Assembly (NCBI GenBank): GCA_902769585.1
Contig: CACXPT010000036.1
Span: 1 to 59,401, forward strand
DNA: 59,401 bases
Direction: 5' to 3'
From: an uncultured bacterium
GTDB lineage: Bacteria > Verrucomicrobiota > Kiritimatiellia > RFP12 > UBA1067
The notes beneath the pieces are model-generated. The model was not told the DNA's origin. It saw only the letters and a program-made list of their open reading frames with translations, and did not search any database. The translations under genes were made by a program, and so were the position numbers. Each line of letters begins with the position of its first letter. The stretch's first letter is position 1. Below, one piece after another: positions 19,497-37,422 of the stretch.

Positions 19497-19526
19497 TTGA
19501 CAAAGCAGGGGCATTTCTGGTACTAT
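19497..19526 (+). promoter_or_regulatory. AbiE operon promoter, leaderless spacing
   Basis: TTGACA (19497-19502), an 18-bp spacer, then TACTAT (19521-19526) in the context TGGTACTAT. The ATG at 19533 follows the -10 after 6 bp with no RBS. This is the clearest -35/-10 pair in the window. Confidence 0.65.
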
Positions 19527-19532
19527 ATTGAC

Positions 19533-20066: not shown

Positions 20067-20910
20067 AGAAAATGCAATCAAGCCACCTCGCAACGAACAC
20101 GAGCTCGAATTACGGTTGGTGCGGCTTCTGAATAGCGACAACCAGAAGATGCTCGTGATGCGGACAATGATGGCGAACGCAATAACCGGGCAATTCCTTC
20201 CCAGAGGAGCCATACTCAAAGGAGGTGGGGCTCTCCGATTCCGCTATGGGAGCATATGCACGCGAAACACGGTTGATTTCGATACGACTCGTCGAGGCGA
20301 TCTGGACACCTTCTTGGAAGCTCTCCGATCTTCATTGGAAATTGGATGGAACGGCTTTACAGGGCAGATCGTCATTCTGCCCCAAGCTTCGCCCAAAGGC
20401 GTTCCGTTCGAGTATGTGATGCAACCCGTGGACGTCAAACTACGCTACAAGGGACAGCCATGGTGTACTGTCAACATCGAGATATCGCATGACGAGGCGG
20501 GATCGTCCGATGTGTGCGACATTGTTCCCCCGACTGAAGAGGTGCGCGAAATGTTCCACCGGCTCGGACTCCCGGAGCCAGCCCCTGTCGCCTTGATGAC
20601 GCTTGAACATCAAATGGCCCAGAAGATCCATGCCGTCAGCAATCCATCCGGCAGCAACCAGCGCGCGCACGACTTGATAGACCTTCAGGTTATCATGAAA
20701 GAGGGCAACGTCGACCTGTCCAGGGTAAGGGAGATATGCAAAAGGCTGTTTGTGCACAGGCGAATGCATCCGTGGCCGACTCCAGTAAGAATACGGGACG
20801 AATGGGAAAACATCTACAACGCCCAGAAGCGGGACCTGAACGTCCTGGGTAACGTCAAAGATGCCGTCATCTGGGCAAATGAACTGATTGCCTCAATCGA
20901 CAAGGAGTAA
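20059..20910 (+). CDS. abiEii: AbiEii family nucleotidyltransferase toxin
   Basis: This 283-aa protein is the toxin partner of AbiEi (PF08843). The nucleotidyltransferase core is LKGGGALRFRYG (53-64) with the DxD-type acid pair in NTVDFDT (70-76). EHQMAQKIHAVSNPSGSNQRAHDLIDLQVI supplies the conserved Lys and Asp of the second half. Characterised members pyrophosphorylate or nucleotidylate tRNA or bind GTP, halting growth when a phage infects. The length matches the family. It is coupled to the antitoxin by an 8-base overlap. Confidence 0.88.
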   Translation: MPEENAIKPPRNEHELELRLVRLLNSDNQKMLVMRTMMANAITGQFLPRGAILKGGGALRFRYGSICTRNTVDFDTTRRGDLDTFLEALRSSLEIGWNGFTGQIVILPQASPKGVPFEYVMQPVDVKLRYKGQPWCTVNIEISHDEAGSSDVCDIVPPTEEVREMFHRLGLPEPAPVALMTLEHQMAQKIHAVSNPSGSNQRAHDLIDLQVIMKEGNVDLSRVREICKRLFVHRRMHPWPTPVRIRDEWENIYNAQKRDLNVLGNVKDAVIWANELIASIDKE

Positions 20911-21007
20911 CAACCGCTCGCATTTGCTTTCGCCACTGGGAGTTTTACCCTACCAATAGAATCTAGGCGTCCAGGGCTGGCCGTCGCCTTGCTTCGACGC
21001 GCCGCAC

Positions 21008-21033
21008 GGTAGGGTCGCGTGTCCCGCGCGACC
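21008..21033. repeat. Degenerate REP-like palindrome, intergenic
   Basis: GGTAGGG followed by GGTCGCG-TGTCCC-GCGCGACC-like sequence (sharing GG). It resembles the T/A-stem variant of the intragenic units but with an altered arm and loop. Confidence 0.5.
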
Positions 21034-21127
21034 GCATGGTGGGCTACTTCTTCTTTGTCAGCAAGTCTATCATGTCGTCCGCGAGCTTGCATACTTGGGC
21101 GGAGGCGCAAAATGCGGTGGTAAAAGG

Positions 21128-21199
21128 TCACAGTACCTTGTCCACGATGCCCCACGCCTTCGCCTCGTCGGCGGTCATGATCTCTTCGTTATTTCGCAT
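21128..21199 (-). pseudogene. C-terminal fragment of ClpP
   Basis: Twenty-three codons, MRNNEEIMTADEAKAWGIVDKVL, match the last turn of the ClpP protease (MTAxEAKxxGxxDKV) and end with TGA. The catalytic Ser/His/Asp part is absent; the upstream sequence in this frame is unrelated. It is a leftover from a deletion or insertion event. Confidence 0.65.
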
Positions 21200-21272
21200 T
21201 GTTTTTTTTCTCCTTGTCGTGACGCTTTTCGTTGATGCGCACGATAATGACAAGTGTTCACGAGCGACATTC

Positions 21273-21479
21273 TTACATGGAAAAGAATATTTCTCGGATT
21301 TTCTCGCGCTTCTTCCTCTCATGCGCTTCTCGCCCCGAGTCCCAAGAGCCGACACATTCGGCTCGGATGGCGCAGCATCCGCCGCAACGCTCGCGCACGG
21401 TCAGCGTATCCATGACGGCCATCAGCTGATCGTGCATGAGGCACCCCATATCCAGTTGCTGCGCTTCTTTCGTCGTCAT
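21273..21479 (-). CDS. Small Cys-rich hypothetical protein
   Basis: This 68-aa ORF is preceded by GTGGAGAAGAA. The middle contains RCGGCCAIRAEC, a CxxCC-x4-C cluster that could bind zinc or a metal centre, and the C-terminus is strongly charged (EAHERKKREKIREIF). No family is recognised. It is the last intact ORF of the minus-strand small-ORF row. Confidence 0.5.
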   Translation of the reverse strand: MTTKEAQQLDMGCLMHDQLMAVMDTLTVRERCGGCCAIRAECVGSWDSGREAHERKKREKIREIFFSM

Positions 21480-21546
21480 TTCTTCTCCACCATCTCGTGC
21501 GCCTGCATGTAACCGAAGTCCACGGGCTACTTTTCGGGCACGCCCT

Positions 21547-21759
21547 TCACGTAGGGCTTCGATCGCGTAACGTGAAGAATTCGTCCTTTGTCATGCTTTG
21601 TCTGCGCGTACGACGCTTCTCGCGTCGCTTTTCGTCTACTTCGGCATGCATGCATTCCATCAGATGGATCATCTGTACGGCATCGCCATACGCTAAGCCA
21701 TGAACCTTCATGGCCAGCCTGATTTTCATTTCGTTGAACAGCCGTTCGTCCACTTTCAT
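21547..21759 (-). CDS. Small basic hypothetical protein
   Basis: This 70-aa ORF has AAAGGATTACCAG before the ATG. It is helical and charged, with the C-terminal half rich in Arg/Lys (VDEKRREKRRTRRQSMTKDEFF), suggesting nucleic-acid or partner binding. Its ATG overlaps the stop of the preceding ORF (ATGA), so it is translationally coupled. Function unknown. Confidence 0.5.
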   Translation of the reverse strand: MKVDERLFNEMKIRLAMKVHGLAYGDAVQMIHLMECMHAEVDEKRREKRRTRRQSMTKDEFFTLRDRSPT

Positions 21760-22169
21760 CTGGTAATCCTTTGATGTGAAGCGATAAAAGCCCGAGATGT
21801 GGCGTTCAATGACAGTAGAATGCCGACAAACTCAGGTTTCTGGAAGTATTGCGGCATGACAGTCCAGTTGCCATGTACGAGATCGACGAATACGGTCCGC
21901 CATGTGTTCTCGTTCTTCGAAAGGATGGTCACGTAATAACCATGTTCCCATTCTATGAAACATATGCAATGTCGCGTGTCTTCAATCTCGATAGAAGCAC
22001 GATCTTCATCCAAGTGAGTATAATAGTTTGTGTCCAGCCGACCTGCGTACTTTGAAAGTACATCCTGTACGCTGGCATCCGAAATGCCGGCAACCGGTTT
22101 TATACGGTCAAGCACTTGTGCAAAGTCATTGCGACCGAATCCCTGATTTTCATCAACTTGTGCATTCAT
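21756..22169 (-). CDS. Hypothetical protein
   Basis: This 137-aa ORF is read from MNAQVDENQGFGRNDF. The alternative upstream ATG at 22301 would add a Cys-rich stretch that looks non-coding. The middle (IEIEDTRHCICFIEWEHGYYVTILSKNENTWRTVFVD) suggests a small alpha/beta immunity-like or anti-phage accessory fold, but no family is recognised. GAGG lies about 11 bp upstream. It is coupled by ATGA to the 70-aa ORF. Confidence 0.5.
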   Translation of the reverse strand: MNAQVDENQGFGRNDFAQVLDRIKPVAGISDASVQDVLSKYAGRLDTNYYTHLDEDRASIEIEDTRHCICFIEWEHGYYVTILSKNENTWRTVFVDLVHGNWTVMPQYFQKPEFVGILLSLNATSRAFIASHQRITR

Positions 22170-22188
22170 AATTTCCAGGCCTCGTTGG

Positions 22189-22518
22189 TCATGCGCACCG
22201 GACAGCCCCGAACACGGCCTCAACAAGGTCGTAAAAGCCACTCCCTTGAAAACTGCTTGGCAACAACAATCCCTCCTCTTCATCCCGAAGAGTCGCGTCA
22301 ATCAGTTCCAGGAACCGTCCATCACGGTCCACCAGAACCTCGATCTCGGCGCTCCACCCGTCTTCCATCTCAGCATCCAACGTCACAACGCCGCGATCTC
22401 CATCCTTGCAAGCGTCTTTCACTTCTGCTTCAGACACCCACTCCATCTTACGGCCTTTCATCTTTTCGTTGAAAGCCTTCAGTTCCAGTTCTTTATCGTT
22501 TTGCATCTTGTTTTCCAT
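22189..22518 (-). CDS. Acidic hypothetical protein
   Basis: This 109-aa ORF is preceded by AAAGGAGAAAAACG, one of the best RBSs in the island. It starts MENKMQNDKELELKAFNEKM and carries an acidic beta-rich core (GVVTLDAEMEDGWSAEIEVLVDRDGRFLELI). The ORF is acidic throughout; immunity or anti-toxin proteins are often acidic, but no homologue is recognised. Confidence 0.55.
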   Translation of the reverse strand: MENKMQNDKELELKAFNEKMKGRKMEWVSEAEVKDACKDGDRGVVTLDAEMEDGWSAEIEVLVDRDGRFLELIDATLRDEEEGLLLPSSFQGSGFYDLVEAVFGAVRCA

Positions 22519-22553
22519 CGTTTTTCTCCTTTGGGTTGTAACGTAGAGTAGTT

Positions 22554-22877
22554 TCATGCATAAGCCACTTCCATGTGGCAGTGATTGAAGGTGGGGGCAT
22601 CTTCGGCGCGTTTGAAAGGGATATAAAATTCACGATCGTCTCCATCGGCTCGAAGGCATTGTGTGCGGAGAAAATCATACGCCCAGCCCGGACAATGGAA
22701 ATCCTCCAGGAACTTACGGCGGTTGTAACGGCCTCGGCTGGCAATGAACGCCTCTTCCATCTGCTGATGGTTTGGCAGATTACAGAATGCAACCGCCAGA
22801 TTACCCACCGTCATGGGTTTATACAGCATTTTCCGCGCAATCGCGCACAGTAGCCAATGTTCTCCGGATAGTTTCAT
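22554..22877 (-). CDS. Hypothetical protein
   Basis: This 107-aa ORF has AAAGGAACAAAG before the ATG. The sequence (LCAIARKMLYKPMTVGNLAVAFCNLPNHQQM) looks helical, followed by a His/Cys/Asp-containing C-terminus (FHCPGWAYDFLRTQC, FNHCHMEVAYA). No family is recognised. It is 35 bp upstream of the acidic 109-aa ORF on the same strand. Confidence 0.55.
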   Translation of the reverse strand: MKLSGEHWLLCAIARKMLYKPMTVGNLAVAFCNLPNHQQMEEAFIASRGRYNRRKFLEDFHCPGWAYDFLRTQCLRADGDDREFYIPFKRAEDAPTFNHCHMEVAYA

Positions 22878-23267
22878 CTTTGTTCCTTTCTTTAGTTTTG
22901 AGTGACGATCTGTGGACAGGCTGTTTTAAGCAACGCTTCCAAAGACCTTGTATCAAGAATACAGCGCAAAACACTCATTTGCGACGCATTCTTCCGATTT
23001 ATCGGAGTTAAAGCCCTTATAAGGGGTTGAATGGCGAACATTGTCTCATAATCACAGTCAAATGTCCAGCCGTTTTCAAAAAATTGTTCAAAAATAATTG
23101 ACACAGCTGGTCGCAAATCACAAATGTCAATTTGTGTTTGTGGCAATGGTCGCAATGGTGAACCATTTCGACCCGTGAACAATCACAAATCCGCAGCCAA
23201 GCGTAAATGTTATTTTTGACAATCGGGGAGGGATTAAGAATAGAAATCCTTGACGAGACAGATTACT
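22878..23267. other. AT-rich intergenic stretch, possible weak ORF
   Basis: A 96-codon minus-strand ORF (22892-23182) begins with TTG right after a stop codon and has no RBS. Its composition follows the local base bias, so it is not called as a gene. Nothing else is recognised. Confidence 0.4.
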
Positions 23268-23585
23268 TTATTCTAGATCCAAATCCATGATCATATCGAA
23301 CACGGCGCACAACTTGCGGATCGCCTTGCCGTAACGTCGGTCGGCGCATGCCTTCTTCCGATTCTCGAATTCCCGCAACACGCCGACATCAGATGGTTTC
23401 TCGGCAACGCCATTGAACATGTCGTCAAACGGGCTGCGGCGAGCGACAACAAACTGCTCACCCGCACAAGCCGTCATGAACACGAACCAATCCTGTTTCC
23501 CGGCTCGTACCTCCATCTCGCACCCGACCGCATCAACCCCAGCGTTGACCGAAAACTTCCTGTACCGTACTCTCAGAATTTCCAT
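23268..23585 (-). CDS. Hypothetical protein downstream of the NERD-UvrD gene
   Basis: This 105-aa ORF starts at MEILRVRYRKFSVNAG with GGAAAGGAACAGCA upstream. It has a beta-rich first half (CEMEVRAGKQDWFVFMTACAGEQFVV) and a helical C-terminus (ENRKKACADRRYGKAIRKLCAVFDMIM). It follows the NERD-UvrD gene by 111 bp on the same strand, so it may belong to the defence transcript. Function unknown. Confidence 0.55.
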   Translation of the reverse strand: MEILRVRYRKFSVNAGVDAVGCEMEVRAGKQDWFVFMTACAGEQFVVARRSPFDDMFNGVAEKPSDVGVLREFENRKKACADRRYGKAIRKLCAVFDMIMDLDLE

Positions 23586-23696
23586 TGCTGTTCCTTTCCG
23601 TTGTTGACGACGACATAAGCACCCTACCTCCAGCAATCAAACTTACGTCTTCGTGCTGTCCACCAGTTCATTTCCTCTAATGCCAACGCCACGAAC

Positions 23697-25451
23697 TCAT
23701 CCTACAGTCCTAGCCAAATCGATAATGTACAATTCGTACTTTGCACGACTTTCACCAACATAGCGAAGCCTGTCGTTTTCGTCTTGACTGGGAAGATTCC
23801 CAGCTAACACAAGAACAACACAATTAGCCTCTAGTCCCTTGAAGGACTGGATTGTTTCGGCGAGAACACACTTGTCATCTTTCCACTTCCCCAACATTTT
23901 CTTTCCTTCCTTCCATGGAAGAGACTCCCCGTTCTTCTGACATTGATATCGCTTGAATTGAATCGTACTTCCCGCATAACTCAATGATTCATTTATGAGT
24001 TCATTTAACAAATCATTCCTATCAGACAAGACCACAATGTCACGTGGACGACGCGGGCGACCTTCTGACAATTGACCGGACAGCAATCCAACAACAACTT
24101 TCTTTATACTTTCATTCGTATCCAACTCCTGGACTGGCTTAGTCTGGAACTCCCGGCAAGGGCGAATCATTGGCGTTGTATCTTCTCCAGTAAGACTCCG
24201 GAAATGCTCAAGTATCTTATCGGTATTCCGATAGTTTCTCTTGAGATCGCATTCAACCGGTCGCACATCAAATACATTGCAGTTTAACGACCATTCCGTC
24301 GCAAATAACGTTTGATTCTCGTCGGAGAATATGGCAACATGGCGATCGCGTTTCACCACAGAAAGTAGCACAAAGATTTCATCATTGGAGAGATCCTGCG
24401 CCTCATCAACAAGCAGGACATCAAACTTTTGCATTTTATGTAATCTCATGTCATCTGCTAACGAACCCATTTGAGCCAGGGTCCTACCTCTGTCAAGTCT
24501 CCCATCCTGACCAGACACGCAATAGTTCTTCCCAGCCAAAGGTTCTCCTATGCTATGGAAATGTGTAATCACAACCCCGAGCTGCTTATGGCCCGGGCAT
24601 TCGTTTCGGCATTGCTCGGCGAGAGCCTTGTTAAAACAGACATAAAGTACACGTTTCCCCTGTTTCGCAAACTCAACTGCAGAAGTGATTGCAATAATGG
24701 TCTTGCCTGTACCAGCCGCACCACGAATATGAACATAGCGGTTTTGTTCAATCTTCCAAGATATGTCTCGTTGCTCATTGTCCAGCCCCTCACGCGACCA
24801 TTTTTCCATTCTCAAGAAATCATCTGAACGCGCGATAGGTGGCGAGTTCAATGTAAAGTGCCTTAGTATCGCGTCCTTCCAGCTAATAAAATGACAGAAC
24901 CTCCAAGAAAAACCATCCAGAAGCTCATCTATCTTCTTCAGGATTGGCAATGCAGTTTCAGTCCCGTCAACCCCAATGAGATCACTTGCTTGCAGATAAG
25001 GGTGCCCTCCCGGAATCCCCACCTGGAAATCAGATTCCGTAAAAACCACAAGTGACGAGAACGCACCCCAGTCTGAATCACAGGAAATATTATCCCGCAC
25101 ATACTCATTAAAGATAAAAATGCCCCGCGTTACCTCATCAAAAACATCTCTAGCGCCAGGCTCCAATCGCACGCCTCCATTGATCAAACTATAGCCATTC
25201 CCCTTGGCATCTACATTGCAAACTCCTTTCCCAGGCACGAAGACAAGAAAGTCAAACTGCGCCGTTTCCTTTTGCTTATTGTACTTCTCGACAGTGACAC
25301 TTGTGTCATACAACACCGTCCAGTCCTCCGGGAGCACATCACGAAACAGTTTATACAGATGCCTTTCCGCTCGCCATCCATCTTTTGTTTCAGGAATTTT
25401 CGCGTCAATTTCAGCGTCCGTTTCATCATTACGAATTATGCTCGTTGCCAT
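23697..25451 (-). CDS. NERD nuclease domain fused to UvrD-like superfamily 1 helicase
   Basis: This 584-aa protein joins an N-terminal NERD (PD-(D/E)XK) domain to an SF1 ATPase. NERD: E29 in GWRAERHLYKLF, D67 in AQFDFLVFV and D81-A-K83 in CNVDAKG give the E...D...DxK catalytic set. Helicase: Walker A GAAGTGKT (244-251), FDVLLVDEAQDLS (Walker B), QTLFATEW, and the C-terminal ETIQSFKGLEANCVVLV and YVGESRAKYELYII motifs. Such proteins cut or degrade invading DNA in several defence contexts. It is 21 bp behind the DUF1998 helicase with AAGGAATCGACCT before its ATG, so it is the third gene of one operon. It is not a known obligatory part of Druantia. Confidence 0.85.
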   Translation of the reverse strand: MATSIIRNDETDAEIDAKIPETKDGWRAERHLYKLFRDVLPEDWTVLYDTSVTVEKYNKQKETAQFDFLVFVPGKGVCNVDAKGNGYSLINGGVRLEPGARDVFDEVTRGIFIFNEYVRDNISCDSDWGAFSSLVVFTESDFQVGIPGGHPYLQASDLIGVDGTETALPILKKIDELLDGFSWRFCHFISWKDAILRHFTLNSPPIARSDDFLRMEKWSREGLDNEQRDISWKIEQNRYVHIRGAAGTGKTIIAITSAVEFAKQGKRVLYVCFNKALAEQCRNECPGHKQLGVVITHFHSIGEPLAGKNYCVSGQDGRLDRGRTLAQMGSLADDMRLHKMQKFDVLLVDEAQDLSNDEIFVLLSVVKRDRHVAIFSDENQTLFATEWSLNCNVFDVRPVECDLKRNYRNTDKILEHFRSLTGEDTTPMIRPCREFQTKPVQELDTNESIKKVVVGLLSGQLSEGRPRRPRDIVVLSDRNDLLNELINESLSYAGSTIQFKRYQCQKNGESLPWKEGKKMLGKWKDDKCVLAETIQSFKGLEANCVVLVLAGNLPSQDENDRLRYVGESRAKYELYIIDLARTVG

Positions 25452-25472
25452 AGGTCGATTCCTTTTCTGGGT

Positions 25473-28400
25473 TCACTCTTGTTCGGTAGATTCAATGTCT
25501 GGTATTTTTCCGGCGTCCACGTCTGGATTATAGCGGAACACCGTACCATCTCGTAATCGGCAACGCTCCCCAGCCGCTAGATCATGGCCATCGTAAGGTT
25601 CCCACACGACTTCAGCCGCCACCTCAACAGCAACGGCGGCACGATTCGCCGCCTCAAGCATAACCTGCACAACGGCGGCCGGTGGATTTCTTTCTCCGTC
25701 AAGAAGCAGACGAAGAACGACTAACGCATCAAAGAGATCAAGCTTGTCATGCTCATACTGATTGTCGTAGGTCCGAAGACAATGATAACATGATGCCGCT
25801 GGCCTAGTAGCATTATTACCCCGATAATCAGCTGGAGGAACTGGGGGCAAAGCCTTATAGGCTTCATCGTGATGCCCCCCGCACGGACAGCGCTCTAGGT
25901 TATCAATTGCAGCCTCCACTATAGCCCGAATCCTGGTTCTTCCCTCAACATCGTCAGCCCCCCGTAACAGAAGATCAATCACGCAACCGCTTCCACCTCC
26001 ATTGTCAGCGTCAAAGAATACAAACCAGAAACTGGTTCTACCATCTCCAGGGGAATATGCCTGTACCAGCCCCCCAACATCGCGTTCGTTAATGCGCATC
26101 ACAATTGACATTGATTTTCGAAGCGCATACATTGCCGATGTAAACGCGTTTGCAATCCTATTTGGCGTCCACCCGGCAAATAACGGATCTTGATTCCAAA
26201 AGCCGGGAACCCACAAGACGACATTCGTGGGTACTTCACAGAGGTAGTACCAATTATGTCCTATTACCTGCGAGTTGACATAGTGGACAGCACGCTCGGT
26301 TGGTTCTGCGACAAGAAGGCTCATCCCCTCTACAACATGTTGAGAACGTCCACTCACTTGACCCGACCAAGAAACGACACGTTTTCCGCGTGAATCATGC
26401 CTAAGAGGTGGATTAATTGATCCTTTTCTTGCAATAAACAACTCGGGTGTTACAAACGTTTGATTCCGTGTTTCTCCCTGACAACAGGGACAATTTTCCT
26501 CTCCATGATAAAACACCTTGTGGCAACTGTCACAGAATTTCAAGATCGTTCCTTGCGCATTTGCCACAAGATTCGCATCGCCGTTATTGAATCGATAGAC
26601 CTTCGCACCCCTAGATTCGTAACGCCGCTTGTTGGCATAGACACTTTGTCCTGGCGCATATTCATACATGCCCAGATGGATTGGCCGCGACAATTCAATC
26701 CCATACGCGTCTCCATCATCATTCTGGGTAACAAGCTTAATTGTGTCGACTGGAAAACCGTATCTTGGCAATACACAGGCATCGCTCAAAGCATCAATTG
26801 TCGGGCCCCACAGTAATTTAGACTGTGACAACGACAACGGCTTGTTTTCTGGCCAGCCATGATTCATGATCTCGTCATCAATCATACCATCATCTCCGTC
26901 CGCAAGCAGTCGGAACTTCCACTCCAGTCGATCCTTTAACGAACGCCATTTGGGGCGTCTGTTGTCAAGCAGTCGGCCATCACCATCCATCTCTGGGATA
27001 TTACATCCCCCAAGCCCACGAAAATACGCAAGCCCCGGCTCGCCTGCCTTGCCAAAGAACCCCTCCATGCCTTCCAATTGGAATACCACATCATCGACAG
27101 GAGAATACCCTTCATTGTGGGGCAGATTCGCAAGAAAATCTCCCTGATAACCGTAAATGCCACTCACAAAATCACCTACAGCATCCCTATTGCTTTCTTG
27201 CCAATCGGACAACCAGCTGCAACATGTACATGGAAGCGTTCTCGCTTGGAACGTTTCTGCGTTTTGATTTTGTACCTTACGCGAAATCCTTCCCATCAAG
27301 AAATAAGATATCTTCTTCCAGTTTCTGGCAGCGGCCTTCTCATCTTGGTTATTTGACGTCCACTTGTTGTCTTTGATCCACTCAAGAAACTTGTGCAATG
27401 CTTCCGCACGGAAATGCCGCGCGGCGAATTGAGGACGGTCAAGATACAGCCGTGGAGGATCTATCTCGCCAAAGAACAATTTAGCCGGATCTTCGTAACG
27501 ATCCCGGTCATAAGAAGACTGACTTCCGCAAAGCGTGAGGATCCATGGGGCCGCCCCAGGACGTCGACCAGCCCGCCCCGCGCGCTGCTTGTAGTTCGCC
27601 GTACTAGGTGGCATATTTCCTAGAAATACATTGTTAAGGCTCCCGACATCGACCCCCATCTCAAAAGTCGTTGAGCAGGACAGAATGTTGATTTTGCCCT
27701 CGGAAAATGCCCGTTGGTATACAGCGCCTATCTTGGAATCAATCTGTGCAGTATGTTCCTGAATGACAAGCGGCAGAATCTTGTCTTCTTCAGCAATGTT
27801 TTCCTGGAAATTCTCACCTGGCTCAACAATCAGATCAGCACACAATCTACTGAACACAAAGACATATGTATTACCATTGGCCTGTAGAAGTCGTTCGAAT
27901 ATCGTCCACACCCCGCCAAGTAGATTTAACACTTGCGGGTGCGTGACATTGTTCAACCCTAGCGAGGTAAGACGTCGACTGACAATGCGCAAGACCGCAT
28001 GGTTTTCCCTCCATGCCTGCGGGGCGATCGTAGCTCTCGTAAAGTTGTCTTTGGGCTCCCACCTGTAGAAGGCATTCTTAAGATCATCGTTTTCAAACTG
28101 AATCTTTTTCGAACACACAAGATGCGAATAGATTTCTTGCAGTATAGCCTTCATATCGACTTCGGGGATCACCCCGAATGGCTCACCGAACAAGAAGTCA
28201 AAATCGTTGTCATGTCTCGTAAGGTCCTTAATCATCTTAGACTTGATTGTGAGTTTCTGTTGCGGTAAGAGTCCGACACGTCGGTTACCCGCCGCCAAAG
28301 CTTTAAGTACACGAAGTTTTGAGACTGTCGCTTCATCAACCATCTCTCCATTGTCCCGCTCAAGGCTAAGTAAGCGTTCGTAGTGATCGGTGGCAACCAA

Positions 28401-31313
28401 TCTGGCAAACTCATTTTCCATATTGGGCGTACAAACAAGATCCTGAACTACGGCATCACGTTGCCCCATGAACTGCCGCATAATCGGATTCCCGATAAGT
28501 TGTTCTCGAACAAAACGAACCCCTTTCGCTGCGAATGCCTGTATCGCGATTTCCATTGCAGCCGCTTCATCAATGGTTCCATTGAATGCTGCACGAAGTC
28601 GTTGGACAAGTTCATCGCAGTATTCCGTCTGAATTGCCCGGTCAAAGGAAAACGCAAGAGAAGCAGCGCCGCTGCGGCTGTCTGCAAAAGCAAGAATCTT
28701 CCGCCCACCCGCAGGGGCATTTCCTTGAATGCCTGCATCTGGGTCAGGATTCGTCTCGCGGGCAAAAGCCTCCAGCGTTGCTATCTTAAACTGGATCCCA
28801 GTAGCCTCGTACGGCGTAATGATACCATAATTGGCAGTAGCAACTGCATTGCCACCACAGGCGTTACACGGCGAAAGGAACTCATCCCCTCTTTCATTGT
28901 CATGTCCAATCAACCAATATAGCTCTGTCCCGTCGTGCTGGGGATTCGCATTACGAGTGACATTGCCAGTACGCAAATCTATAAAAATCCCATGCGAACG
29001 ATCTTCCGTATTGTCGTCCATATCGCTCGGCGCATTTAAGGTAAAAGCGTGGAGATGCTTGCATTCCCCGACCGGGAAACGGGACAGAGACATGTCTATG
29101 ACGCCATTTCCGCCTCCGTCATGTCTATCCCTCCCATACCCAAGCAGATAAGGTTGTCCGCACCGCCGACAGACACCGAGACCGAATATCTTCTCCCCGG
29201 TCGCCGCATACTCGTCCTCCGAATGTACGAAAACAGGCTGCACCGGATTACCATTACGGAAATAAACCCCAATATGGGAAATGTCCCTGACAACCTGGTG
29301 GAACCGAACGTCTATAAGCGGCCGTCTCTTACCTCGCGGGTAAGCGAAAGCCCCGACTTCCATTATCCGCCCCATGGTTGCCAGATCCATTCCGGCGTCA
29401 GCCGCCACTCGTGAAACCGAATTGGGTCGCTCTGCCGCACTGAAAAACCGCGACACATCGCCTCTGGCCACAATGGCATTGTAAATCCATTCACGGTACT
29501 TTTCACCGTTGGAACCAGGAAAGTGACCTTGCCATCTCTGGAAGATCCCGCTCTCTTGTTCCGCAAGATCTCGTTCTTCCTGCCTGTAACCGTTTATCTT
29601 ATCGGGGATTTGATCCAAAATACGCGGTGTCAAATGCACCTTTACATTCTGGATGCTTCCTTGCGCCAAGTCCTCGGCATCCTCCACGCGAACTTCCGGC
29701 TGCAATAGCATCTCGAGAGCACGATAGAGGTAAAGAACTGTCTCCAAGTGGATTGTCTGAGGATGCGTAACATTGTCATTCGCAAGGTTCTTCCAGACTT
29801 CAAGCAGTGAAAGTCTATTTCCCAAACGATTGTTGTCATTTGGCTTCTCACTTCTACGCCCATCCATTTCATCGTGAAGAACACCACGATATGGTTCACT
29901 GTCTCGAGAAAAGGTCAGCATCAACTTGCTCAGCCAGCGAATCTCTTCGGAAACATTGACTTCGTCGCCTTCAACTGGAACTCCACCATGTATCACTTCG
30001 GGATGCCTCTGGAAAAGGCCGGAGTCCAATTCATCAATTTGAGACAGCACGACCGATCCGTTGAACTCCTGAACTTGTGTTAGCAGCTTAATTCGTTTCT
30101 CGGCAAGTTTATGGTTTGCCTTTTTAGCTTCAAACGCTACCGTATCAGCACAAAGCTCTTCAACAGCATTATTAAAAATGTAGGCATCATTGCCATTGTT
30201 ATTTTCTGGCACGACGAAATGCTCTTCATCTCCGCCGTAAACATCAAAAGAATCAGTTTCTGCCGGGAAAAGGCTAGCCGCAAATTCCCTTGTGTTCCTT
30301 TCTCGGGTCTCGGCATCGGCTGAAGTAGAAAGTGTAGCCGATGTCGCCAAGAAACGGACATCATGCTCGTTGTTTGGATCAATCCTGTGGCGTAAACGGC
30401 GGATAAGCCACGCTATTTCTGTGCCGGCGGCACCAGAATACGAATGGGCCTCGTCCAACACGATAAAATCCCATGGCTTATTAAAAAGCGTTTGATTCGG
30501 TAATAACAAGAGCCGTTCTAACATTGCGAAGTTGGTGACAAGAATATCTGCTCCGCCACTACTCCACCGCGCTCTGTCCCTGTATTCGTTTTCAAGATAA
30601 TCCTCATCCACATGGACATCGCCATCAACAGTCATGTATCCTGCCTCTGCTCCGGCACGCCAAATCTCAGAAAAACTTTCTGCATCACGAAGCGCACTCA
30701 TCTTCTCATTTGTCTCGCTCGTGTATCTTCCAAACGTGACAGGAAGATCCTTAAGCAACTTGCGGAGGCGACGAATCTGGTCGTTCACCAGTGCGTTCAT
30801 AGGATAAAGAATCAATGCGCGGACATGTTCATCATATCTCACGCCTTGCAGTTCAGCCTCCTTGCGTTGCTTGTATATTGCATTCACGATAGGAAGTAGG
30901 AAACATTCGGTCTTGCCGCTGCCAGTGCCAGTACAAACCACAAGGTTTCTGCCACGGTTGACGCTACGTAATGACCCGAGCTGGTGCGTGTAGAGTTTTA
31001 CCTGCTCTGGTCGCGCATCATTCGTGTCAAGAAGATATTTTGCAAACGCACGAGCAACTTCTAGCTCCAAATCTCCTCCAGGCCTAGCAAGATCAGCAAG
31101 AGTCTCTGCCGCCTCCTGATAAACCGTAGCGAGCTCAAGGTATGGTTCTTTTATGAAATCTAGCCCATTATCAGCATAGTCGCCACACCCTTCTTGGAAT
31201 TGGTCGAATGCATGAGCTATTGGTTTCTGCATCGCCTTCTTGACAGGGAGCGCCAAGTCAAGATAGCGCAGAATGTTCTTCTTGATGTTAGCTGTAGATG
31301 TCTCAATTTTCAT
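25473..31313 (-). CDS. Giant DEAD/DEAH helicase with DUF1998 C-terminus (DruE-like)
   Basis: This 1946-aa SF2 helicase has an N-terminal extension of about 100 residues, then the Q-motif-like YTHQLGSLR and Walker A TGTGSGKT (128-135). The Walker B is VLDEAH (285-290), motif III is ATSAT (323-327), and motif VI is QRAGRAGRR. A long mid-region carries Cys clusters (CRRCGQPYLLGYG, CNACGG, CDSCHKVFYHG..CPCC). The C-terminus is a DUF1998 zinc module (CPCGGHH and SCYHCLRTYDNQYEHDKLD). Length and order match DruE, the hallmark of Druantia anti-phage systems; YprA/MrfA and DISARM DrmA/DrmB are related but shorter or split. Start at MKIETS (31313) has AGAAAGG upstream; the gap to the preceding stop is 29 bp. 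Confidence 0.85.
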   Translation of the reverse strand: MKIETSTANIKKNILRYLDLALPVKKAMQKPIAHAFDQFQEGCGDYADNGLDFIKEPYLELATVYQEAAETLADLARPGGDLELEVARAFAKYLLDTNDARPEQVKLYTHQLGSLRSVNRGRNLVVCTGTGSGKTECFLLPIVNAIYKQRKEAELQGVRYDEHVRALILYPMNALVNDQIRRLRKLLKDLPVTFGRYTSETNEKMSALRDAESFSEIWRAGAEAGYMTVDGDVHVDEDYLENEYRDRARWSSGGADILVTNFAMLERLLLLPNQTLFNKPWDFIVLDEAHSYSGAAGTEIAWLIRRLRHRIDPNNEHDVRFLATSATLSTSADAETRERNTREFAASLFPAETDSFDVYGGDEEHFVVPENNNGNDAYIFNNAVEELCADTVAFEAKKANHKLAEKRIKLLTQVQEFNGSVVLSQIDELDSGLFQRHPEVIHGGVPVEGDEVNVSEEIRWLSKLMLTFSRDSEPYRGVLHDEMDGRRSEKPNDNNRLGNRLSLLEVWKNLANDNVTHPQTIHLETVLYLYRALEMLLQPEVRVEDAEDLAQGSIQNVKVHLTPRILDQIPDKINGYRQEERDLAEQESGIFQRWQGHFPGSNGEKYREWIYNAIVARGDVSRFFSAAERPNSVSRVAADAGMDLATMGRIMEVGAFAYPRGKRRPLIDVRFHQVVRDISHIGVYFRNGNPVQPVFVHSEDEYAATGEKIFGLGVCRRCGQPYLLGYGRDRHDGGGNGVIDMSLSRFPVGECKHLHAFTLNAPSDMDDNTEDRSHGIFIDLRTGNVTRNANPQHDGTELYWLIGHDNERGDEFLSPCNACGGNAVATANYGIITPYEATGIQFKIATLEAFARETNPDPDAGIQGNAPAGGRKILAFADSRSGAASLAFSFDRAIQTEYCDELVQRLRAAFNGTIDEAAAMEIAIQAFAAKGVRFVREQLIGNPIMRQFMGQRDAVVQDLVCTPNMENEFARLVATDHYERLLSLERDNGEMVDEATVSKLRVLKALAAGNRRVGLLPQQKLTIKSKMIKDLTRHDNDFDFLFGEPFGVIPEVDMKAILQEIYSHLVCSKKIQFENDDLKNAFYRWEPKDNFTRATIAPQAWRENHAVLRIVSRRLTSLGLNNVTHPQVLNLLGGVWTIFERLLQANGNTYVFVFSRLCADLIVEPGENFQENIAEEDKILPLVIQEHTAQIDSKIGAVYQRAFSEGKINILSCSTTFEMGVDVGSLNNVFLGNMPPSTANYKQRAGRAGRRPGAAPWILTLCGSQSSYDRDRYEDPAKLFFGEIDPPRLYLDRPQFAARHFRAEALHKFLEWIKDNKWTSNNQDEKAAARNWKKISYFLMGRISRKVQNQNAETFQARTLPCTCCSWLSDWQESNRDAVGDFVSGIYGYQGDFLANLPHNEGYSPVDDVVFQLEGMEGFFGKAGEPGLAYFRGLGGCNIPEMDGDGRLLDNRRPKWRSLKDRLEWKFRLLADGDDGMIDDEIMNHGWPENKPLSLSQSKLLWGPTIDALSDACVLPRYGFPVDTIKLVTQNDDGDAYGIELSRPIHLGMYEYAPGQSVYANKRRYESRGAKVYRFNNGDANLVANAQGTILKFCDSCHKVFYHGEENCPCCQGETRNQTFVTPELFIARKGSINPPLRHDSRGKRVVSWSGQVSGRSQHVVEGMSLLVAEPTERAVHYVNSQVIGHNWYYLCEVPTNVVLWVPGFWNQDPLFAGWTPNRIANAFTSAMYALRKSMSIVMRINERDVGGLVQAYSPGDGRTSFWFVFFDADNGGGSGCVIDLLLRGADDVEGRTRIRAIVEAAIDNLERCPCGGHHDEAYKALPPVPPADYRGNNATRPAASCYHCLRTYDNQYEHDKLDLFDALVVLRLLLDGERNPPAAVVQVMLEAANRAAVAVEVAAEVVWEPYDGHDLAAGERCRLRDGTVFRYNPDVDAGKIPDIESTEQE

Positions 31314-31342
31314 TTGAGTTTTACCTTTCTGAACAACGCTTG

Positions 31343-34300
31343 TTACTGCTGAATACCAGTTAATACGGAAGCGATTGAATGACATTTACCTTGATAACTG
31401 TTGAAAAGTTCCCACTTTTCATTGTCGGCACGAACAACGCGAAGAACATCAACAAGAATTCGTGGTGTAACATTATCATGCCCACAAATAAGTAACGTTG
31501 CCGCCGCAACACAGAAAATCCATTCTCTATCGGTTGGTTCTCGGTAGTTAGGTCGACCCGCCACTCGTCGGCGGGTTTCCATGATGCCAAGAATCTTTTT
31601 GAACATTGACAACAAATCAGTCTTTTCCGTATTAATCGAACTTAAGATTTCAGAAGGGGCCGCGTTCTGGTTTCCTATATTCGGAGCATTCTGGATTTCA
31701 AATTCATTTTCCCGAACATTGTTGTCCAGACAAGCACGATGGACAATCTGTTCCGCGCTTAAAGGTATAGGTGATGGTTCTATCAGGTGATTCTGTTCAC
31801 GTGCTTCGTGAACATCTGCCTTTTGAATCATCGCCTGAAGACAGCTCTGAAGATTTCTATCGGGAATTTGTCTGCCCCAACACCGATTGGACAACTTACG
31901 CCAATTATTACAATGTCTCTCGATTATGTTTCTAAATTCTGTTACAACACGCATCGTTCTTCTAATATTTATCTGTTGCCAGAAAGGGAGACTTCTAATC
32001 ATATCATCTCGAACATCCCTCGCTTCAATATTATCTCGTAGAAAACCCCTCCATTTGCGGGAATCTTGGTCTATATCCTCAAACCGAGTCCCGTCCAAGG
32101 GGACATAGCTTACGAATAAACATTTCATCATTTCATAAACCTCTTGCGTAACGCCTTCTAGAATAGGATCAAAACCGCTTTGTAACCATTCATTGAACAA
32201 ATCATTCCACACCCTATAATCTATACATTTCCCAGCTATCAGCGTTTCGACTGATCTTCGCCAGCCATTCCTCACCTGCTCGGATGTCTGCGTCTGCATT
32301 GTCCTGAAGAAGTGCATTTCCCGAACAGGATGATTTTCAGGGATATTTGCGAGCAAAATTTTCAGCACTCTAACGGCAGACAGTTCTGCATCACCATACA
32401 CACAATACTCTACGCCTCTTCTCAAGCGCAGCCTTTCACCGAACCTGTCTGTGATCGTATTCGTACAGATGATGGAGTTATGACCATCCGTCGCTTCAAA
32501 GAGGGCCAGTAACGCATCATGCTCTTCCGCATCCTGGCAAAAGGAATTCCACTCATCTTGAATGTCCGTAAACCTATTGTCTGGACAAATTCTAGCAATG
32601 ACTTTACCCTGAAGAAGCAAATCTGCAGACTTGTCGGAAAAGGCCACCGCAACGTATTTCGATTGATCATTCGCTGGGACATAGACTCCAAGCCGTCCAT
32701 TCACATCAGCACAAAGCCGTGCCGATCTTGGTTCAAAACGATATTGGAAAATCTTTATTTCGCTCCCTGGAAAGCGATACGGTCTCGCTTGTGCTTCTGG
32801 ATCATATCGGAAATCTGAGACATCAATCAGACTCTCAACTCGCCGACGAAAATACGACGAAGTTAAGGGCCACTCCCGCAGGTCGCACTTAATATCCGGC
32901 GGCAGACACAGAGATTTGCTCCGGATTTCCTCAGACGAAAACTCCTCAACACACGAATGTTCATCAAGAAGAGCCGGAACGGGTGTCATGTCCATGAATG
33001 AGTTATGGCCGGCCTCGAACCACCATTTGAAACCATTGTCAGGGACACCAATCTCAAAGGCCGTACCCGTCGGATCCTGAATCTTTACACGTCTAAAACC
33101 CTCAATCCTATCCGCTATCGGAGAGATGCCGCCGTTGCACACATTTTCAATAATCCATCCTGCGCGTTGCATGCTTCCGACACAAAGACACTGAGCTATG
33201 TTATCAGGAATAATGATTCCTTTGGCTCGACCTATTATCCAACCGCGACCTGTTCCTGCAGATTCCTCGCATCGCAATGTGAACGGTGTTATTGCGTTCA
33301 CATTCGCTAATGTCTGTATTGCTTGTAGTGACACCGCAACATCTTGACAAGTTTCCGACCATTGTTCAACGCCTTTCGCAAAAAGCGTCCACTTATATTC
33401 ATTGCTTTCCCGGGGAAGTTCAACTTTGAGGTTCATTGTGTCTGAAAGGGACAGGCAGTACGAATCTCTTCCCATCGATGTAACAAAGACCCCATTGCCA
33501 CCTGTATTGACCGTGACATGTGCCGAATTACCCCTGACCTTGATCCTTCGAATTTCGCGATCACCGTCGCATATTGCAATTTCAACATCTGCATCGTTTG
33601 GACGATTCGTTATGCGATATATCCGAAATGGAATTTTGGCCGGCTCCTCATTATCGTTGGAAATGAAGAAGTTCCCGGACTTGTATAACCTCCATTCTAC
33701 CTGATTAGATTCGCTCGTCAACTGTAACCTGGAAATAGCATCACCATCTCTTCCGCAGACGAGAAAATCCGACTGCCCGCTTCCTAGTTCAGGTTGCTCA
33801 TCCCAGTCATATCGCTTCCACCAATTGCACCTTACGTCCTTCCTGTTTGAACGATATCGGACAAAAACTCCGAGGGATTCGTTGGCAGAATGGAAAAGAC
33901 ACGACTCGTCTTCATCTACCACCGGCGGGTCTCTGTCATTGGGCTTTAAGGTGTCCCATTTCGTTTTGCCGTATTTAATTGAGATATTTCGATTCCATGG
34001 AATCGGTTCAGCCCAAGAAGATGATGTTGGGATTCTTTTCCGATCAACACGGCCTTGATCAGATATTTCAAAACTTCTCCATCCACCTTCTTCATCAGGG
34101 AAATCATCAAACCCAGCAACATATTGTGCCACTTTCCCACTCTCATCAAATTGCAGATACCAGTCTACATATGCAGTTTGCGACAGGTTCAAATGCAAGT
34201 CACAAGCATCTATCCACATTCTCCAAACGCGTAGTTCTTCAGAAGGAACCTTATTCTGCCACCTCTCAACATTGTTAGCGCGTGCGCCTTCAGAAAGCAA

Positions 34301-34771
34301 CTCAACGAGGCGAAAGAAATCTCCATCTTTAACATCACACCTTGTTTCAATGTCATTGTCGCCTTCTTTTAAGAAATGAACCATATCACGAAGGCGATTC
34401 CAAACATTTGATGCACCTTCTCCTCCTTTTAGAATCCAGCATTTCGATTTAATGCTCGTTACTCTATCACCTGTATTGATTGATTCATGATAAACCATAT
34501 TCCATGCATAGTCCAGTCTACGGCGTAAATCACTATATGGCCGTCCGAGCGGGCTGCTCAACTCCTGAAACTCGTCCCCACGACTTTCATTAAAGAAATC
34601 ATAAAGAAATACCGAAAGTTGCAAATGATACCAACAATTTTCCCTCGGCGGCGGCAAGTCGCGAACTTGCGCTCTTTCTTCATCACTCAAAAGACAACCC
34701 GACAAGAACAATGATCTCGTTCCTGTCTCTAACCCCATGCGAAATGCATTCTCTTTTTCATAGTTGATCAT
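31343..34771 (-). CDS. Large unknown protein encoded before the DruE-like helicase (DruH candidate)
   Basis: This 1142-aa protein starts MINYEKENAFRMGLETGTRSLFLSG with AGGAAAAAGGC upstream. I recognise no Walker, nuclease or zinc motif. The N-terminal ~220 residues are helical (LQLSVFLYDFFNESRGDEF). The middle is beta-rich with many Trp residues (SNEYKWTLFAKGVEQW, FKWWFEAGHNSFMDM). The C-terminus is helical with TLLICGHDNVTPRILVDVLRVVR. In Druantia type III a large uncharacterised protein, DruH, precedes DruE; size, order and spacing fit, but similarity cannot be tested here. It probably serves as sensor or scaffold for the helicase. Confidence 0.6.
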   Translation of the reverse strand: MINYEKENAFRMGLETGTRSLFLSGCLLSDEERAQVRDLPPPRENCWYHLQLSVFLYDFFNESRGDEFQELSSPLGRPYSDLRRRLDYAWNMVYHESINTGDRVTSIKSKCWILKGGEGASNVWNRLRDMVHFLKEGDNDIETRCDVKDGDFFRLVELLSEGARANNVERWQNKVPSEELRVWRMWIDACDLHLNLSQTAYVDWYLQFDESGKVAQYVAGFDDFPDEEGGWRSFEISDQGRVDRKRIPTSSSWAEPIPWNRNISIKYGKTKWDTLKPNDRDPPVVDEDESCLFHSANESLGVFVRYRSNRKDVRCNWWKRYDWDEQPELGSGQSDFLVCGRDGDAISRLQLTSESNQVEWRLYKSGNFFISNDNEEPAKIPFRIYRITNRPNDADVEIAICDGDREIRRIKVRGNSAHVTVNTGGNGVFVTSMGRDSYCLSLSDTMNLKVELPRESNEYKWTLFAKGVEQWSETCQDVAVSLQAIQTLANVNAITPFTLRCEESAGTGRGWIIGRAKGIIIPDNIAQCLCVGSMQRAGWIIENVCNGGISPIADRIEGFRRVKIQDPTGTAFEIGVPDNGFKWWFEAGHNSFMDMTPVPALLDEHSCVEEFSSEEIRSKSLCLPPDIKCDLREWPLTSSYFRRRVESLIDVSDFRYDPEAQARPYRFPGSEIKIFQYRFEPRSARLCADVNGRLGVYVPANDQSKYVAVAFSDKSADLLLQGKVIARICPDNRFTDIQDEWNSFCQDAEEHDALLALFEATDGHNSIICTNTITDRFGERLRLRRGVEYCVYGDAELSAVRVLKILLANIPENHPVREMHFFRTMQTQTSEQVRNGWRRSVETLIAGKCIDYRVWNDLFNEWLQSGFDPILEGVTQEVYEMMKCLFVSYVPLDGTRFEDIDQDSRKWRGFLRDNIEARDVRDDMIRSLPFWQQINIRRTMRVVTEFRNIIERHCNNWRKLSNRCWGRQIPDRNLQSCLQAMIQKADVHEAREQNHLIEPSPIPLSAEQIVHRACLDNNVRENEFEIQNAPNIGNQNAAPSEILSSINTEKTDLLSMFKKILGIMETRRRVAGRPNYREPTDREWIFCVAAATLLICGHDNVTPRILVDVLRVVRADNEKWELFNSYQGKCHSIASVLTGIQQ

Positions 34772-35037
34772 GCCTTTTTCCTCATTTCAGAACGAACGAT
34801 CCACTTCTCCTGACTTGTCAAGTAATAGACCCCTTTGTGCTTATAAAGAGGTCTGCGGGCAAATCCTCATACATTAACATCGCCTTGATAAAATTTACAA
34901 CGCCAAGTACGATGTGTCATATTGAATTCTTAAACTCTCCAGACTTCTAACATTCCGATTGAACTTTATCATGCCGTACTCCTTCCATGGTCTGGTTATC
35001 GCCGCCGCTTGCTCCACTGGGAACGGTGGCGTATGTG
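34772..35037. promoter_or_regulatory. Upstream region of the defence operon
   Basis: AT-rich, no gene. It holds a hairpin with 10-bp arms AGACCCCTTT (34827-34836) and AAAGAGGTCT (34845-34854, one G-T pair), about 55 bp before the first ATG of the three-gene unit, plus TTGACA near 34815 on the minus strand. No convincing -10 is paired with it. The hairpin could be an operator or attenuator. Confidence 0.35.
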
Positions 35038-36765
35038 TCACATTGGGGGCAGATCCTTACAGACGACGAGGTTCTTCTTGTAGAAGGCCATGCCGAACTT
35101 GAGGATGTCGCGCTGTTCGCCGTGCGCGGCGAAGTCGGCGAGCATCTCGGTGGTGTATTCGCGCGTGTCGATCTGCCGGCGCGCCTCGCGGGCGAGCGCG
35201 TCGAGGTCTTCCGTCTCCTCCTCCGCCGCCTTGAGCTCGATCACCACGCCGGGCATTCCGTCGATGAGCGGACGCATGGAGATGTCGTAACGTCCCTCGC
35301 CCGACTCGCGGTTCGACTTCACGACGAACCGGTTGCGGAAGCACGCGATGAACCCGAGGACTAGCCCGTGGTAGAACCCCTCCGCCGCCGTGTCGAAGAA
35401 GCTCACCGACTCCTTGAGATAGACCGCAAGGTACTTTCCAAAGAGGAACGGATCGCGCTCGCGGAGGGCGCGCTCGACGGCGACGATGCCGCCGCTCTTG
35501 TCGAATGACCGGACCTTCTGGACGATCTCGCTGTAGAACACCTGCTTCAGCTCGTAGTTTGGGATCATGACGTCGCACTCGCCGTCCTTCACCTCTCCAA
35601 CCGCCTTCAGATAGCCTGCGGACACCAGCAGCGCGTACAGCGTGTTCTCGTTGTCGCGAATCTGCTTGTAGGGTCCGAGCTCCTTCGTCATTGGAACCGC
35701 AACCGGCTTCCCCACCATCAGCTTATGGAGCGTCACCTCCATGTCGAACGGCAGTTCCTGCACGATTTCGGTAATGAGGTCGTTGGAGCTCGTGTCGAGC
35801 CAGTAGGCGTCGGGACGGCAATTGCACTTGAAATATCTCAGCACGCTCCAAGGATTGTAGATCTCCGTTCCGCCAAAATCGTAGCCGTCGTACCACGCCT
35901 TGATCTCCGGCAGCTTCTCCTCCGCCCCGTAGTACCGTGCCATTTCCGCGACCTCTTCCTCGGTGAAGCCGAAATACTGCGAGTACTGCTCATCAAAAAC
36001 TGTCCATACATCAGGATTGTTGAGCCCCGAGAGGATTCCCTCCTTCGCAACGCGCAGGACGCCCGTCATGATTCCGATATGGCAGTGCTTGTTGTCTTTC
36101 AGCGCGCCCGAAAGGAAGACGCGCATGAAGTTGCACATCTCGTCGTAGTAGCCGTTCGTCGAGGCGGTAGTGATCGGCTGGTCGTATTCGTCGATCAAGA
36201 GGCCCGGCAGCTTCTTCGTGGAGGCATGGACTGCCTCGGAGAGGAGCCCGAGCGACTCGGAGAGTTCGTCCTTCGTCCCCTCGCGATTCATCACTTTGCG
36301 CAGCGAGCGCTTCTTTGCCTCGTCGCCCCACCCGTTCTCGACGCAGTCGGCGAATCGCGCGACCTCGCCGCCAATCACCTCAGCAAGTCGCGTGAACGCC
36401 TCCTCCGCGGTCGTCTGCTTGATGTCCTTGAATGAAAGGAATATGACAGGATGCTTCCCCTGCTCGTTTTGGTACTTCTCTCCTGCTGCCCAAATCTTCT
36501 TGTCGTGGAAAAGCGACGCCTCGCCCTCGTAGAACGCGCGGATCATCTCCAGCATCGTCGTCTTACCGAAGCGCCGCGGGCGCGTGAACAGGATCACGCG
36601 CGACTTGGAGTCGATGAGGTCTTTCAGTATGAGCGTCTTGTCCACGCAATATGAATCGCGCGAGAACGTCGCCCAGTCGCTCGTCCCCACGGGCGGCGGC
36701 AAAAGCCCGCTCTTGCGCACTGCCGTGCACACCTGTTTCATGTCTTTATTTGTTGCGTTTGCCAT
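35038..36765 (-). CDS. AAA-ATPase-like protein with C-terminal PD-(D/E)XK domain (DUF1703 type)
   Basis: This 575-aa protein pairs an N-terminal AAA-ATPase_like domain (PF09820) with a PDDEXK_9 domain. It has the family opening WATFSRDSYCVDKTLILKDL, Walker A FTRPRRFGKTTM (60-71), KLPGLLIDEYDQPI (Walker B), and the C-terminal nuclease core RYDISMRPLIDGMPGVVIELKAAE. The start at 36765 has AAGG close upstream and begins the conserved domain. The family is highly multicopy in gut bacteria and its function is unproven; a toxin-antitoxin or defence role is suspected. The codon use is GC-rich like the chromosome, unlike the neighbouring helicase genes, so it may be older or separate from the system. 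Confidence 0.85.
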   Translation of the reverse strand: MANATNKDMKQVCTAVRKSGLLPPPVGTSDWATFSRDSYCVDKTLILKDLIDSKSRVILFTRPRRFGKTTMLEMIRAFYEGEASLFHDKKIWAAGEKYQNEQGKHPVIFLSFKDIKQTTAEEAFTRLAEVIGGEVARFADCVENGWGDEAKKRSLRKVMNREGTKDELSESLGLLSEAVHASTKKLPGLLIDEYDQPITTASTNGYYDEMCNFMRVFLSGALKDNKHCHIGIMTGVLRVAKEGILSGLNNPDVWTVFDEQYSQYFGFTEEEVAEMARYYGAEEKLPEIKAWYDGYDFGGTEIYNPWSVLRYFKCNCRPDAYWLDTSSNDLITEIVQELPFDMEVTLHKLMVGKPVAVPMTKELGPYKQIRDNENTLYALLVSAGYLKAVGEVKDGECDVMIPNYELKQVFYSEIVQKVRSFDKSGGIVAVERALRERDPFLFGKYLAVYLKESVSFFDTAAEGFYHGLVLGFIACFRNRFVVKSNRESGEGRYDISMRPLIDGMPGVVIELKAAEEETEDLDALAREARRQIDTREYTTEMLADFAAHGEQRDILKFGMAFYKKNLVVCKDLPPM

Positions 36766-36870
36766 TCTCAGCCTTGTCCCATGTTCCAAGCGAGACCTAG
36801 TGTATCAAATTTCATCATCATCATCAAGACTCCCCTTGCGTTTTTGTATCATGGGAGCATCCGTTGTCCT

Positions 36871-37155
36871 TTACACGTGAAAGAGATCGTCCAAGCGCAC
36901 CTGCGAATGAACGAGATATGAATATTCGTTGCGTTTGACGCCTGCAACCGTGATCATGGTCAGATGCAATGACTTGTCCGTTTGTGTCTCTTCCTTAAAC
37001 GCGGCTTCGCCTAATGCATCAATTTCATTTGTTCGACCGATCATCGATGCCTCATCGGATTGTAATCGATCAATATGTGGCCACTTATCCGACTTAATGT
37101 CCACATAGAAGTTATAATCGGTCATTATCTTCTGCAAATGACACTTAATGACCAC
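36871..37155 (-). pseudogene. C-terminal remnant of an archaeal-type AAA ATPase
   Basis: This 94-codon ORF ends SLHLTMITVAGVKRNEYSYLVHSQVRLDDLF, which matches the extreme C-terminus of archaeal-type ATPases (..TMITTxGxxxNxYxxxVQSxVxLDDLF). The ATPase domain is missing; upstream lies an 8-bp repeat tract. It is the truncated tail of a gene once continuing toward 37.2 kb. Confidence 0.6.
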
Positions 37156-37422
37156 TCATAACCTATCTCTCTTGCCTGTAACTTGTTTGAAAGTTTGAAA
37201 GTTTGAAGGTTTGAAGGTTTTAAAGTTTTTCTAAAGTTATCCTCATGTGCATTCCTGTGCGAAGCGCGGGCGGCGTACTACACGATTCATGCTTTCTCGA
37301 CGGCGTTCCGCCCTATGCGGAATGAGGCACCAACTTCGTTGGGAGAATGAGATGCACTGCGGTAGCGACTGTAGGAACGTTTCTACTTGCAAGTACGCAA
37401 CCGAACTGATAGACTATGCGAC
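37156..37422. other. Intergenic region with octamer repeats at the island edge
   Basis: Four to five copies of GTTTGAAA/GTTTGAAG lie at about 37185-37224, followed by GC-richer sequence with a small TTCCGC/GCGGAA hairpin (near 37300-37322). No ORF is supported. It separates the ATPase remnant from the core gene at 37423. Confidence 0.55.
37410..37415 (+). promoter_or_regulatory. -10 element before the outer-membrane barrel gene
   Basis: TAGACT in the context TGATAGACT ends 7 bp before the ATG at 37423; no RBS is seen between. Confidence 0.4.

Follow-up and report, generated by a model that had tools for sequence, protein, structure and literature searches.

A DruE-family helicase with an adjacent NERD-UvrD gene: a candidate three-gene variant of Druantia III in an uncultured Kiritimatiellia bacterium

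The window analysed here is a stretch of 59,401 nucleotides from an uncultured bacterium (assembly GCA_902769585.1, contig CACXPT010000036.1), and it carries three co-directional genes, all on the minus strand, which we refer to in their order as genes 1, 2 and 3. Gene 1 (31343–34771) is an open reading frame for an uncharacterised protein of 1142 aa that occupies the position of DruH in Druantia loci and is a candidate sensor. Gene 2 (25473–31313) codes for a DruE-family (YprA-like) SF2 DEAH helicase of 1946 aa with an MZB/DUF1998 module, assigned with PADLOC and Pfam, and gene 3 (23697–25451) for a 584-aa SF1 nuclease-helicase of the NERD (PD-(D/E)XK)-UvrD-like type, assigned with PADLOC, Pfam and aligned motifs. 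The gap between genes 1 and 2 is 29 bp and that between genes 2 and 3 is 21 bp. The sequence-only reading had described three same-direction genes with these lengths and spacings, and the open reading frames agree with it when gene 2 is started at 31313. The first in-frame ATG of gene 2 lies further upstream at 31385 and would give a protein of 1970 aa (31385–25473); however, a Shine-Dalgarno-like AGAAAGG site precedes the ATG at 31313, and because the nearest relative (L011) has this site in front of its homologous start as well, we prefer the gene model that yields 1946 aa and a gap of 29 bp.

The GC content falls to 46–49% across the three genes, compared with about 65% in both flanks, and the trio therefore lies in an acquired-looking island that extends approximately from 19500 to 37200 (GC 0.45–0.58 within, 0.65 outside). 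Two overlapping plus-strand reading frames at the edge of this island (19500–20907) match AbiEi, below threshold, and AbiEii, and together form a type IV toxin-antitoxin pair. A gene with AAA-ATPase_like and PDDEXK_9 domains (PF09820, PF08011) lies immediately upstream of the trio, at 35038–36789 on the minus strand.

Judged by its profile matches, gene 2 is a genuine DruE-family (YprA-like) helicase. The PADLOC models DruE1 (9.1e-114), DruE3 (2.5e-111), DruE2 (1.8e-91) and DruE4 (2.9e-81) matched it strongly and covered both ends of the protein, with the DpdJ, BrxH and DrmA models far behind. Pfam recognised the DEAD and Helicase_C domains along with MZB, the DUF1998 module, which scored above the Pfam cut-off, so that the original description of a DruE-like protein with DUF1998 is upheld. 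The protein ends about 94 residues past the DUF1998 cysteine motif (25473–25757 on the minus strand, bounds approximate), compared with 401–411 residues in the E. coli protein, and therefore there is no room in the window DruE for the two PLD domains of the latter. No Pfam domain was found past MZB, and a reading of the tail as a degenerate Vsr nuclease was not supported, the match to the end of ArmC reaching only E 0.16. In a DruE tree the window protein falls outside the proteobacterial DruE3 clade; it is also rare in its phylum, being present in two of 388 genomes at E <= 1e-60.

Gene 3 apparently encodes an intact NERD-UvrD nuclease-helicase. Its PADLOC matches were to RTasNERD-Hel (6.1e-29) and to the NERD+UvrD model C3a187 (9.6e-24), and Pfam detected UvrD-type helicase domains together with a weak NERD match (0.0019) that is below the cut-off. 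It can be seen from an alignment with 31 relatives that the NERD positions D67 and D/E81-x-K83, the Walker A/B motifs and the SFKGLE motif are retained; the window protein has Q at position 65 and D at position 81, where most of the 32 sequences have E. The earlier NERD-UvrD assignment is thus borne out by the PADLOC matches, the UvrD-type domains and the aligned NERD residues. A sequence comparison with solved structures gave no match. The window protein is only 20–23% identical to most other NERD-UvrD proteins, its placement in the gene 3 tree is not settled, and it could therefore be an independent recruit.

Gene 1, described beforehand as uncharacterised, indeed had no match of meaningful score among the families of Pfam, PADLOC or NCBIfam; an NCBIfam match to DsrK (17 bits against a cut-off of 400) was judged to be noise. 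The only full-length homologue that we found is 45–46% identical and lies at the same position in another genome of the window's family (G588). No match other than the genome's own was seen in 288 genomes of its class, tblastn against plasmids and phages gave none, and scans of viral contigs with DruE and gene 1 returned one DruE relative and nothing else. In G588 genes 1 and 2 lie at one contig end and a gene 3 that is 65% identical starts at another, and we infer that this is the same trio split by assembly. Comparison of the two genomes indicates that gene 1 is the fastest evolving of the three, at 45% identity against 66% and 64% for the others.

The first protein had also been proposed to be DruH-like, and here the evidence is divided. 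It did not match the PADLOC DruH models, which strongly recognised the E. coli and Marinobacter DruH proteins run as controls; with DruH3, the controls L102 and L103 reached E = 0. An hhalign comparison of gene 1 against a set of eight DruH proteins gave E 0.07 and was not collinear, and thus provided no link to DruH. An AlphaFold model built from two sequences had a helical N-terminus, a beta-rich middle and a helical C-terminus, a layout that, at the low confidence of this model, resembles the one described for DruH (PMC13192584); since its pLDDT of 34 was too poor for fold comparison, it was left out of the fold search. The likeness of gene 1 to DruH, which itself diverges faster than DruE (PMC13192584), is therefore limited to where the gene lies, how large its product is, how the secondary structure is laid out and how fast the sequence evolves, and these are resemblances rather than proof.

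The sequence-only reading had proposed a neighbourhood survey, which we carried out by searching 85,000 species genomes once with the C-terminal half of DruE. The search gave the 80 best DruE loci; they were picked by similarity to the window and hence form a non-random sample. A NERD-UvrD gene was found directly downstream of DruE on the same strand in 29 of these 80 loci, most gaps measuring -8 to +21 bp, and because the pairing recurs in this way, the idea that NERD-UvrD stands beside DruE only here fails. Every NERD-UvrD locus whose contig reaches upstream also has a gene for a protein of ~900–1225 aa just before DruE. The hosts of these three-gene loci are many Bacillota as well as Verrucomicrobiota of the Akkermansiaceae and related groups, and a gene order shared by so many genomes is far beyond chance. 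About forty further loci among the 80 have the two-gene form only. Pairwise identities of the DruE and NERD-UvrD proteins correlate across loci (Mantel r 0.86, a value reached in none of 2000 permutations), showing that genes 2 and 3 co-diversify.

The proteins encoded upstream of DruE belong to more than one family. Homology links two large ones from Bacillota, and no connection was detected among the several others, the window's gene 1 included. When 35 of these partner proteins were compared with the DruH models, none matched; one of them matched PglW and three have RNA polymerase alpha-CTD-like regions, and parts of the sensor gene may be exchanged frequently. In HHalign comparisons of the partner families with DruH, the Bacillota family came best, at an E of about 0.02 with collinear N-terminal halves, which is not significant. 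An AlphaFold model of one Bacillota partner (L085, pLDDT 76) was matched by Foldseek at low TM-score to strings of Ig/FN3-like beta-sandwich domains; no DruH entry was matched in libraries released up to April 2026, from which 9tud may be absent. This predicted fold agrees with the Ig-like domains reported for DruH, without being proof of kinship.

The presence of gene 3 was found to go together with the length of DruE beyond the DUF1998 motif. This tail measures 94–177 aa in DruEs that have NERD-UvrD next to them and either 16–44 or 345–411 aa in those that do not; the ends of 345–411 residues share homology with the PLD region of canonical DruE3, and the DruEs that carry them are without gene 3. 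In the tree set, with the PLD forms left out, gene 3 is present with 30 of 30 tailed and none of 37 untailed DruEs (Fisher 1e-19, kinship not corrected). Kinship was addressed with a DruE tree from which the tail columns had been removed beforehand, and in which ten phylogenetically independent contrasts were all concordant (p = 0.00195). One locus scored as having gene 3 in the count of 30 is L042 (12250–15653), where DruE is tailed and the NERD-UvrD gene is cut after 61 codons, with a recombinase-like reading frame on the opposite strand; further downstream in L042 is another helicase-like gene with a GIY-YIG-looking N-terminus. The fragmentary locus L058, which is outside the tree, has a tail of 177 residues and the start of gene 3. 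In a held-out check of 392 genomes from one Bacillota order, all eight new loci fitted the rule, three having both features and five neither. About half of the related DruEs persist with no tail and no gene 3. No homology was detectable between the Verrucomicrobiota tails and those of Bacillota, which weakens the case for a single docking mechanism; adapters that arose by convergence, or rapid divergence, may underlie the rule.

Among the closest known systems is Druantia III-A, the DruH-DruE pair of E. coli (PDB 9tud, 9tu7). The DruE of E. coli loads onto DNA with a 3' tail and cuts long DNA, its PLD domains being C-terminal, and DruH is a proposed sensor that is also a dimerisation-dependent nuclease (PMC13192584). 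Both loci have a large protein of uncharacterised type followed by DruE on one strand, with similar sizes, a helicase and DUF1998 core, and an upstream protein (DruH there, gene 1 here) that diverges faster than DruE. They differ in that the E. coli DruE ends in two PLD domains and requires no further gene, whereas in the window DruE is without PLD domains, gene 1 matches no DruH model and a NERD-UvrD gene is added. Thus the window has the DruE helicase of Druantia and the composition of Druantia III, plus an extra gene; it has no DruH recognisable by sequence beside DruE, and its DruE is without the paired PLD domains of III-A. The proposed match to Druantia III in size and order stands, although the DruH sequence definition does not apply. 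Because gene 1 matches no DruH model, the locus would escape a Druantia III call by PADLOC, and as gene 3 is in no Druantia definition either, annotation pipelines miss systems of this kind. We infer that the trio works like a Druantia III system while falling outside the sequence definition of type III, and a new Druantia subtype, as had been suggested, is the best reading only with that qualification.

Another close counterpart is the III-B, or III-like, branch of Bell et al. (2025, PMC12458937), which shares the two-gene core and has a DruE that is most often without any fused nuclease domain. The third gene and its link to the DruE tail are absent from the paper's text, which names NERD for TALON only. 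The window trio is a putative member of the III-B branch, the tree used here having been built without their reference GIH50614.1. In the literature searched on Druantia with NERD or UvrD, and on DUF1998 with NERD, we found no account of the third gene, which may be listed in the supplementary tables of Bell et al. If many III-like DruEs lack a nuclease domain, as that paper reports, the route by which DNA is destroyed is open, and a nuclease encoded by the adjacent gene may provide the answer for the large group described here.

Several other systems combine similar parts. TALON, as described by Bell et al., pairs a YprA-like helicase with a gene for a NERD-type nuclease but differs in its TPR-CSD and TBP genes and in the inactive RNase H end of its helicase. 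Membership was rejected as no TPR-CSD or TBP domain occurs among the scanned neighbours; at the end of the window helicase, Pfam gave no domain past MZB, where the tail is only 94 aa long. ARMADA type II (ArmA-ArmB-ArmC-ArmD) likewise has a YprA-family helicase followed directly by a UvrD/GajB-like SF1 gene (L106), an arrangement also given by Bell et al., and was rejected because its defining genes are absent among the scanned neighbours. DISARM, which consists of DrmA, a separate DrmB and a methylase, was rejected since DUF1998 is fused in one chain here and the trio has no methylase. A class-2 DISARM locus from the window's family (L009:2427–14681, G186:C64), with DrmMII, DrmB, DrmA and an MzaE-like gene, does have a NERD-UvrD gene that overlaps the start of DrmA. 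Finally, gene 3 belongs to the same NERD plus UvrD-like helicase family as the DRT-associated NERD-helicase (PADLOC RTasNERD-Hel) and Gabija GajB, although neither a reverse transcriptase nor GajA accompanies it in the trio.

We consider it probable that the trio is a three-gene antiphage system, a III-B-like variant of Druantia III in which the nuclease is supplied in trans and is probably recruited through the DruE tail. In such a system the fast-evolving, DruH-like gene 1 would sense infection or act as an activator, and DruE would load on single-stranded or 3'-tailed phage DNA and unwind it or translocate along it. The NERD-UvrD protein, possibly docked on the short C-terminal tail of DruE, would supply the PLD-less helicase with cutting activity in trans and with a second, SF1 motor, and together the three proteins would probably destroy the invading phage DNA. 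The UvrD/GajB-like gene of ARMADA II, the NERD nuclease of TALON and the NERD-UvrD gene overlapping DrmA in L009 are parallels for a nuclease acting in trans.

The same genes could instead form a two-gene Druantia III-B system of gene 1 and DruE, with NERD-UvrD an independent defence gene brought next to it by clustering within the island. That many related loci have the two-gene form, and that NERD-helicases are known from other contexts such as the DRT-associated family in PADLOC and the DISARM locus above, would fit such an arrangement; nevertheless it is improbable, since the 29 loci hardly vary in gene order, orientation and spacing, while gene 3 is perfectly coupled to the DruE tail over ten independent contrasts and DruE and NERD-UvrD co-diversify, which chance clustering does not predict. 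Somewhat harder to set aside, though still unlikely, is a separate YprA-family system that is not Druantia, with a gene 1 unrelated to DruH and a type of its own parallel to ARMADA and TALON. The failure of gene 1 in all DruH models and profile comparisons, the position of the window DruE outside the proteobacterial DruE3 clade, and the use by TALON and ARMADA II (PMC12458937) of NERD and UvrD-family genes with YprA helicases all point that way, but the DruE profiles match strongly and over both ends, the trio resembles Druantia III in gene order, size and layout, and the scanned neighbours of the trio include no TBP, cold-shock, BrxHII or PglX genes. Since YprA helicases include repair branches (PMC12458937), we also considered a DNA-repair or housekeeping operon of the YprA/MrfA-like kind with no part in immunity. 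This is very improbable given the scarcity of gene 2 in its phylum, the low-GC island, the matches to defence-branch profiles and the fast evolution of gene 1.

Compared with a Druantia III variant, a broader proposal is more tentative: NERD-UvrD could be an exchangeable effector of YprA-family defence helicases generally, DruE and DrmA included, with loss of a fused nuclease followed by gain of an adapter tail and an adjacent NERD-UvrD gene, repeatedly and perhaps independently; gene 1 would then be a sensor with no kinship to DruH, and the trio would count as a system type of its own. More narrowly, the tail-linked pairing of DruE with NERD-UvrD suggests an exchangeable effector within a known defence family.

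A PLD-ended form was also seen on a Microchaete plasmid (L100:7057–14351), which codes for a cyanobacterial DruE-like helicase. Three genes precede it, none annotated as DruH and two annotated as chromosome segregation ATPase-like.
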